Below are positions 5,039 through 17,149 of a stretch of 64,000 nucleotides of DNA, piece after piece. The translations under genes were made by a program, and so were the position numbers. The notes beneath the pieces were generated by a model. It had not been told where the DNA came from. It ran no database searches and saw nothing but the letters and a program-made list of their open reading frames with translations. Where the stretch lies: contig JAFGBI010000303.1 of NCBI GenBank assembly GCA_016933275.1, positions 1 to 64,000 on the forward strand, in the 5' to 3' direction. Numbering within the stretch: position 1 is the stretch's first letter; every line of letters begins with the position of its first letter. The DNA is from Polyangiaceae bacterium. GTDB taxonomy: Bacteria > Myxococcota_A > Polyangia > Polyangiales > Polyangiaceae.

Positions 5039-5178
5039 CTTCGCAGGTGCCCCGGTTGGGAGAAGACCGAAAACTCCACGGTACCCCGAATCGCTCCCGC
5101 GTGAACCATCCCTCGTGTCGCTCGGGTCTTGGTTCCCCAGCAGAAGGGTGCTACTCGACGGGCCGAATGGGAGCCCTG

Positions 5179-5500
5179 GAGCACCGATCAGGCTGCCAAC
5201 GGAAGCGGCGCCGCTCAAAATGCACCCCAATTCGACCCTGGATCTGCCCACTCGGCGCTGCCGAGCGGGCCCCGACACCCGGTGCCCTTGACGTGGGTCC
5301 TGTGCAGAGCAAGGGACCCGCGGCGTCCCGGCCCCACGCCGCTTCACCGCATGGGGTGCGTTTCCAGCGCCACCCTGGGCGAGGCTTGCTGCCCGTTCGG
5401 TGCCCGACGCCCTCACCCACCCCACGGATGCTGGGTGGGACCCGGAGGACGCGGGTCCCTAGGTTGTTGATTTTTCGCAGCAATCAACCCGATTGCTGCA
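5179..5500. repeat. Intergenic structured element, family 1 copy 1 (imperfect hairpin arms plus terminal GCAGCAATC/GATTGCTGC hairpin)
   Basis: GCACCGA (5181-5187)/TCGGTGC (5397-5403); AAATGCACCCC (5218-5228)/GGGGTGCGTTT (5353-5363); GCAGCAATC (5477-5485)/GATTGCTGC (5491-5499); shares segments in order with 16991-17149. Confidence 0.75.
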
Positions 5501-5522
5501 TTGGCCCCAAGAGGAACATGCC

Positions 5523-5966
5523 ATGGCAACGCTGCGCGAGAAACTCAGCACCGGAACCAAACGACAGGCAGTCGTGGATGACGCCCTCCTCGTCCTCGAC
5601 CAGGAGGTCGCGGACAAGTCCGGACTAACCGGAATCGCCATCAAGGCGGCCTACGCGATGGTGAAGGGGGTCAAGCCCGGGTTCATCCGCGAGGTGGTCG
5701 ACCACCTGCTGGATGACTTCGTGGACGCCCTCGAGCCAATCGCGGCCGAGGCCGCGGAAAAGGGGCAGCGAGCGGGGCCCTACCTCGAGACGAACCGGAG
5801 TCGGGTCGCCGATGCCCTCCTCGCCATCACGGACCGCAAGGCGCAGAACGCCCAGAACCGCGCCATCAAGGCCGCATACGAGAGGCTCCGTCCCACCGCC
5901 AAGAAGCACGTCGAGGCCGCGGCACCTCGTCTTGGTCGAATGATGGAAAAGCACCTCGCCGACTGA
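5523..5966 (+). CDS. Conserved hypothetical protein (DUF6918-like, from memory)
   Basis: 147-aa ORF MATLREKLSTGTKRQAVVDDALLVLDQEVADKSG..., RBS-like agagga upstream. Confidence 0.75.
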   Translation: MATLREKLSTGTKRQAVVDDALLVLDQEVADKSGLTGIAIKAAYAMVKGVKPGFIREVVDHLLDDFVDALEPIAAEAAEKGQRAGPYLETNRSRVADALLAITDRKAQNAQNRAIKAAYERLRPTAKKHVEAAAPRLGRMMEKHLAD

Positions 5967-6280
5967 GGTCCCCACTGGTCTTTCTGCCAGGCCAGAATTG
6001 TACAGTATTCCAATCGGTTTTGTGTAATAATCCGCCAGGGTGGGCGTACCTTCTGCGCCGAGGTGGTCCGAGCCGCTGAAGAGACGGCCTCGCCCGCTCC
6101 TGCCTCGCTTCGATCCCACGGCCTTGCTGCTCGGTGGGGACTCAGGTCGGCTGGGGCCGAGCGTGACCAACTCGATGTCGGATCGGGTGGTGCTGGCTGG
6201 ATCAGCAATCGATGGCGGCCCGCTCGGCCACCGCCCAACCACCAAAGAGGGGGTCGTCTCACGACGATCCTGACCCGGCG

Positions 6281-6435
6281 GAGCCGAAACCAAACAGGCC
6301 GTCCGCGGTCAGCGGTCCGCTGTCAGGTGAAACCCGGAGACCCCGATCGCTGACGCCCGATTGCTGATGGCCGCGAGAACATTGAAAAAAATTCTGCCGG
6401 ATCCGGTCAAGACAACACCGCCAAGGGACGAGCCA
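6281..6435. repeat. Intergenic repeat family 2, copy A
   Basis: GAGCCGAAACCAA...CAGGCCGTC...GATTGCTGA(T)GGCCGCGAGAACATTGAAAAAAATTCTGCCGGATCCGGTCAAGACAACACCGCCAAGGG, similar to 52821-52975 and 52976-53130. Confidence 0.8.
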
Positions 6436-6567
6436 CCCTGCCCCTAGCTCGCTCGTGAGCAGCGAGCAGGTTCGACCGATCTCGGGGGCCCGCCCTGGCT
6501 CGACGCACCTGCGCTGACCGGTTTCTGCGGGACACGTGGGCCTTCCTGCGCTATCACCCCGCGCACC

Positions 6568-16990: not shown

Positions 16991-17149
16991 CTAGAGCACC
17001 GATCAGGTTGCCAACAGCAACGGCGGCGCTGGAAACGCGTCCGTGCGAGGCGAGGACGCGTTTCCAACGCTGCCTCTGGAGAGGTCTGCTGCCGGTTCGG
17101 TGCTCTAGGTCGTTGATTTGACGCAGCAATCACCTGATTGCTGCTCTAG
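16991..17149. repeat. Intergenic structured element, family 1 copy 2
   Basis: Perfect termini CTAGAGCACCGA (16991-17002)/TCGGTGCTCTAG (17097-17108); perfect inner stem GGAAACGCGTCC (17031-17042)/GGACGCGTTTCC (17054-17065); GCAGCAATCA (17123-17132)/TGATTGCTGC (17135-17144). Confidence 0.8.

Follow-up and report, generated by a model that had tools for sequence, protein, structure and literature searches.

Does the base pairing that diverged copies of a bacterial repeat preserve mark selection on an RNA, or does it have another source? The question is raised by two related palindromic sequences, copies 1 and 2 of a repeat that we call family 1, in a 64,000-nucleotide stretch of DNA (henceforth the window) from a Polyangiaceae bacterium. 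The window corresponds to contig C443 of the source genome (G000), an 8.25-Mb draft in 464 contigs. The initial annotation had described helices whose two arms had changed together between the copies, and took this covariation to favour selection on RNA or single-stranded DNA structure.

Family 1 is a dispersed repeat with compact and long forms

Copy 2 displays the unit in its compact, full-length form:

16991 to 17149, + strand: family-1 copy 2, compact full-length unit from CTAG to CTAG, 159 bp long and with 98% identity to the consensus of the genome
16991 to 17108, + strand: module A of copy 2, CTAGAGCACCGATCAGG...CCGGTTCGGTGCTCTAG
17105 to 17149, + strand: module B of copy 2, with internal CTAG, linker GTCGTTGATTTG, hairpin GCAGCAATCACCTGATTGCTGC and terminal CTAG

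The general unit of about 160 bp is composed of a CTAG, module A (a palindrome of 118 bp, its two CTAGs counted), the linker GTTGTTGATTTG, the module B hairpin and a closing CTAG, and family-1 units carry no transposase gene. Copy 2 belongs to a recent burst of compact copies and its fold, with hairpins at both ends, is far more stable than those of dinucleotide shuffles (z -8.75). Using the left-end pattern with up to two mismatches, we found at least 359 copies in the source genome and none with the reversed control pattern. Many contigs of this genome end within or beside family-1 copies (for example C8, C35, C94, C95 and C196), which suggests that the assembly is probably broken at the repeats and that the true copy number may exceed 359. 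The 81 full-length compact copies that were extracted have a mean identity of 93.6% to their own consensus. Module B was also considered as a free-standing REP and rejected: only two module B matches lacked the usual preceding bases, and both look like variants of the normal arrangement.

Copy 1 represents the long form:

5176 to 5504, + strand: family-1 copy 1, long form, from a left CTGG (decayed CTAG) to the right end ATTGG, delimited by sequence and long-form alignment
5176 to 5406, + strand: module A of copy 1, a long imperfect palindrome with outer arms GAGCACCGA and TTCGGTGCC
5222 to 5354, + strand: extra sequence and apical hairpin of the long form, common to the nine recovered long copies
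5404 to 5458, + strand: second interruption, again rich in hairpins, separating module A from the hairpin on the right, CCTCACCCACCCC...GGGTGGGACCC...GGGTCC
5459 to 5504, + strand: module B of copy 1, with CTAG, linker GTTGTTGATTTTTC and hairpin GCAGCAATCAACCCGATTGCTGC

Copy 1 had been taken to end at 5403 and to carry a private insert of about 125 nucleotides in its apical loop. The unit in fact extends to about 5504, past the second interruption of about 55 nucleotides (5404-5458), variants of which are present in other long copies too. The extra nucleotides are real, but they do not form a private apical-loop insertion: nine recovered long copies, roughly 70% alike and with copy 1 counted among them, share extra sequence that flanks a retained apical hairpin, TCCTGTGCAGAGCAAGGGA, on both sides. 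The extra sequence of copy 1 is thus subfamily-wide.

The setting of copy 1 is the gap between a divergently transcribed protein kinase gene on the - strand (Pfam Pkinase, inferred start at about 5038) and a DUF6918 gene on the + strand (inferred ATG at 5523), both start codons being judged by eye. Copy 1 takes up most of this gap and ends about 20 bp ahead of the inferred DUF6918 start; the DUF6918 neighbour has its best relatives among MAGs of Polyangiaceae and of other myxobacteria or deltaproteobacteria. Within this divergent promoter region copy 1 is an old copy of the long form, and its fold is only modestly better than those of dinucleotide shuffles (z -2.6).

The paired changes between the two copies were confirmed. 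In the inner stem both arms differ while pairing is kept, with one G-U included, when AAAATGCACCCC/GGGGTGCGTTT of copy 1 is set against GAAACGCGTCC/GGACGCGTTTC of copy 2, and the same holds for the longer reading, TGCACCCC/GGGGTGCG against CGCGTCC/GGACGCG. The right mini-hairpin, a weak helix, has likewise changed on both sides (CGCC..GGCG in copy 1, CCTC..GAGG in copy 2). In the left mini-hairpin, GTTGC/GCAAC in most copies, copy 1 has one pair compensated and one broken.

The same architecture recurs in several myxobacterial genera

Of 184 genomes of the order, a covariance model (R1) matched seven, five convincingly (G000, G009, G027, G028 and G002), and these five represent five genera with the same family-1 architecture, four of them beyond the source genus. 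A sixth genus, represented by G133, harbors a cousin with 160-bp units bounded by 20-bp terminal inverted repeats (TIRs) that differ at one or two positions, and also a 53-bp version consisting of hardly more than its two TIRs. Between genera the stems differ strongly and the loops and linker are alike, as in GCGAGG and GTTGTTGATTTG. A search of Rfam 15 gave no match at the gathering score in the window, copy 2 having only weak sub-threshold matches, and literature searches for such a repeat family in myxobacteria returned nothing relevant.

Boundaries, tandem units and an interrupted gene point to mobility

Family-1 copies have a sharp CTAG boundary at both ends, beyond which there is no strongly conserved flank. 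The left end matches the reverse complement of the right end at 18 of 20 positions in G000 and G027, at 15 of 20 in G009 and G002, and at 13 of 20 in G028. Adjoining units share a single CTAG, both in the source genome (C278, 12797-12956 and 12953-13112) and in G002 (C40, 5326-5495 and 5492-5660).

At locus L151 of the source genome, a family-1 copy interrupts an IS630 transposase gene. When the flanks are rejoined with one CTAG, they align ungapped and in frame to intact IS630 proteins of plasmids from Streptomyces and Pseudomonas, the CTAG itself creating a TAG at the junction; rejoining them with none gives frame shifts. One CTAG is therefore gained per unit, as judged from this one reconstructed site and the tandem pairs, and the CTAG flanks together with this gain fit either target duplication or a CTAG that is part of the element plus one from the target. 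The L151 copy (1859-2059) consists of module A and two B modules, the latter in tandem, from CTAG to CTAG. At another locus of the same genome (L154, 1394-1820) module A, without module B, directly abuts the C-terminal portion of an IS630 transposase.

Gene context was assessed with gene calls from a crude, simple GC3-based script, by which six of 70 compact copies fall within called genes and the other 64 outside them, whereas 82% of random stretches from the same loci fall inside; 27 of the 64 classified compact copies lie between convergent genes. Several family-1 copies carry an insertion of another repeat, module C, at their internal CTAG, with CTAG-like sequence on both sides. Positions 6278-6440 of the window hold part of this second dispersed family (TCCCTTGGCGGTGTGATCTTGACCGGATCTGGCAGA...GGCTCCGCCGG).

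We conclude that family 1 is most probably a non-autonomous palindromic transposable element, of the kind of a miniature inverted-repeat transposable element (MITE), of Polyangia-type myxobacteria. The CTAGAGCACCGATCAGnTTG ends would be recognized, and the unit moved, by a transposase whose gene lies, or once lay, elsewhere. Two structural features argue against this reading: an ordinary MITE is simpler than a unit with three CTAGs, a long inner palindrome and a separate right hairpin, and the right end in G028 only weakly resembles the left.

Pairing is maintained, with no preference for G-U over A-C

The initial annotation had named R-scape testing of a larger alignment as the check on its reading. 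In an alignment of 20 sequences from four genera, 17 of 48 pairs show changes in both partners, compared with 9.8 +/- 1.8 in shuffles and 4 to 11 with slid partners. We then applied a simplified, home-made version of R-scape to 122 copies, in which substitutions were reshuffled within the branches of a FastTree tree (60 simulations). The consensus fold served as the structure; RNAalifold on the 81-copy alignment had given an implausible one. Against the tree-preserving null, significant pairs were found: four of the 48 had E<0.05 and ranked 1, 4, 5 and 6 among all column pairs. Double changes on a single branch, with one Watson-Crick pair replaced by a different one, numbered 25, where the null had a mean of 5.6 and a maximum of 14. 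Since the covariation exceeds a null that preserves the tree, the pairing of the palindrome is maintained. The covariation first seen between two copies thus extends beyond them and beyond phylogeny.

Selection on a + strand RNA should, in addition, tolerate changes to G-U more than changes to A-C. Among phylogeny-corrected events on the + strand, however, 85 stem changes led from Watson-Crick to G-U and 134 to A-C. Counts of alignment cells gave 102 G-U and 147 A-C in the source genome (helices summed) and 135 and 207 across the five genera, and the genus consensuses hold six G-T and nine A-C mismatches inside helices. The loops share part of the skew, with T>C at 5.8 and A>G at 3.6 per site. 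Folding energies favour the + strand in some genera and the - strand in others; in G133 the difference between strands is about 20 kcal/mol, of opposite sign to that in G002, and the G133 helices show one G-T and no A-C mismatch. The skew is stronger in the right-hand hairpin (module B, for example 17127-17149 of the window), which alone accounts for 37 A-C against 13 G-T stem changes, a pattern that might stem from binding of a protein there or from an effect of the minus strand. Despite these numbers we do not claim selection on a minus-strand RNA from the A-C excess, because T>C is in excess in the loops as well.

These data bear on whether family 1 is a structured RNA family, a cis-regulatory element or small RNA whose fold is selected at each site. 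The stable fold of copy 2, covariation in excess of the tree-preserving null, the loop and linker sequences kept across genera and the position of copy 1 just ahead of the inferred DUF6918 start all fit such a family. Yet the wobble changes run in the wrong direction for the + strand in events and in genus consensuses alike, with loops that partly share the skew, and the strand favoured by folding energy varies by genus; moreover, one copy sits in an IS630 pseudogene, gene contexts are mixed and Rfam offers only weak matches below threshold. We therefore consider a structured RNA family highly improbable, and the step from covariation to selection on RNA or single-stranded DNA is not supported, as G-U is not favoured over A-C.

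Pairing that is maintained without a G-U preference suggests a constraint on the amplifying lineages and not on RNA in each resident copy, many of which retain uncorrected stem mismatches. The structure seems, accordingly, to be kept in amplifying lineages, through mobilization or arm-to-arm copying, and not as the RNA of resident copies. For a MITE-like element, the internal palindrome may be kept in these lineages because a hairpin or cruciform is required by the mobilization machinery, or by template switching from arm to arm, and each copy would decay after insertion without visible RNA-type constraint. Recognition of single-stranded DNA or of a cruciform during transposition is possible. 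Template switching at a quasi-palindrome copies one arm onto the other and generates paired changes without selection on structure, which agrees with the number of same-branch double changes and with the missing wobble preference. The conservation of loops and module order across genera, by contrast, speaks for functional constraint beyond arm symmetry, and mismatches persist that such copying would have corrected; as the account of the palindrome within the MITE-like reading, we regard it as rather unlikely.

No mobilizing transposase emerged among three transposase groups

A further point against the MITE-like reading is that no mobilizing transposase was identified among the Y1, IS630-like and DDE_Tnp_1 genes of these genomes, which are mostly drafts. 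Y1 genes (PF01797) number one in G000, of IS200 type and without family-1 ends beside it, and seven in G027, with none found in G009 and G028, although both of the latter hold many family-1 copies. IS630-type genes (one to three per genome) and DDE_Tnp_1 genes (none to nine per genome) were in no case bounded by family-1 ends. Single TIR-like sites examined in G133 and G028 revealed no kb-spaced TIR pair and no autonomous element nearby. IS630 had been a candidate source, with two of its three matches in the source genome abutting family-1 copies, and was dropped for L151 because there the copy sits inserted within the gene. In G009, a DDE_Tnp_1 element with CTAGGAGCGTGTAkGGGAT inverted repeats adjoins a family-1 copy at the latter's CTAG end (L179, 501-2125); autonomous CTAG-bounded elements thus exist in these genomes.

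The Y1 counts matter for another route of mobility, in which a Y1 transposase (IS200/IS605 or RAYT) that recognizes CTAG and subterminal hairpins moves a REP- or PATE-like element in the form of single-stranded DNA. A CTAG beside a hairpin recalls the GTAG-hairpin REPs (PMC3733652), hairpins stand at both ends of the unit, composites join at CTAG, and an element that inserts 3' of a tetranucleotide would likewise be expected to add one CTAG. Against these stand the single Y1 gene of the source genome, away from family-1 ends, the lack of any in the copy-rich G009 and G028, ends that are inverted repeats, a DDE-type feature, and the absence of the strand-specific wobble bias that would be expected. 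Mobilization by Y1 is in our view improbable. To the same low degree we would entertain a mechanism not yet described, in which a folded intermediate (hairpin or cruciform) and not TIRs alone would be read, with CTAG-palindrome-CTAG-linker-hairpin-CTAG as its substrate; if true, it would explain why stem sequences change from genus to genus and shape, loops and linker persist.

Family 1 resembles known bacterial MITEs in form

The bacterial MITEs ERIC/RU-1, YPAL/RU-2, Correia/NEMIS and RUP are palindromic, mostly intergenic sequences of 100-200 bp, present in tens to hundreds of copies and with stable predicted RNA folds (PMC2229807, PMC10969869). Family 1 is like them in size, palindromy, intergenic sites, copy number and predicted folds, a likeness of features and not of sequence, and RUP also inserts in IS genes. 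It differs in being GC-rich, in its CTAG instead of TA ends, in its internal third CTAG and separate right hairpin, and in its phylum. MITEPsy1 of Pseudomonas syringae is short, has 18-nt TIRs and duplicates a 4-nt target, CTAG or YTAA, on insertion (PMC3189936). Family 1 shares the CTAG target, the TIRs and the shortness, but has another TIR sequence, a target that is nearly always CTAG, and two palindromic modules. The GTAG- and CGTC-tagged REPs measure 20-40 bp, those of GTAG type being associated with RAYT genes (PMC3733652). A tetranucleotide beside a hairpin and a high copy number are common to these REPs and family 1, whereas, of the four carrier genomes searched for Y1, two gave none, and family 1 has inverted repeats at its ends; membership in the RAYT/REP system fails as far as tested.

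Among IS families, IS630 and the IS5/IS427 group insert at CTAG. They share this target with family 1, as does the L179 element of G009, whose TIR does not match that of family 1. For bacterial MITEs the parental IS is often unknown, and we judge family 1 to be a new family of the MITE kind whose parental IS is missing.

Covariation between repeat copies, often taken as a sign of RNA function, can stem from mobile palindromes, and counting G-U against A-C changes, with loops as the reference, is a simple control for covariation in repeats. Within the literature searched, family 1 is an undescribed repeat that makes up a large part of some myxobacterial genomes. Where it lies in promoter regions, as between the kinase and DUF6918 genes, it may alter the neighbouring genes even if it is not kept for that.
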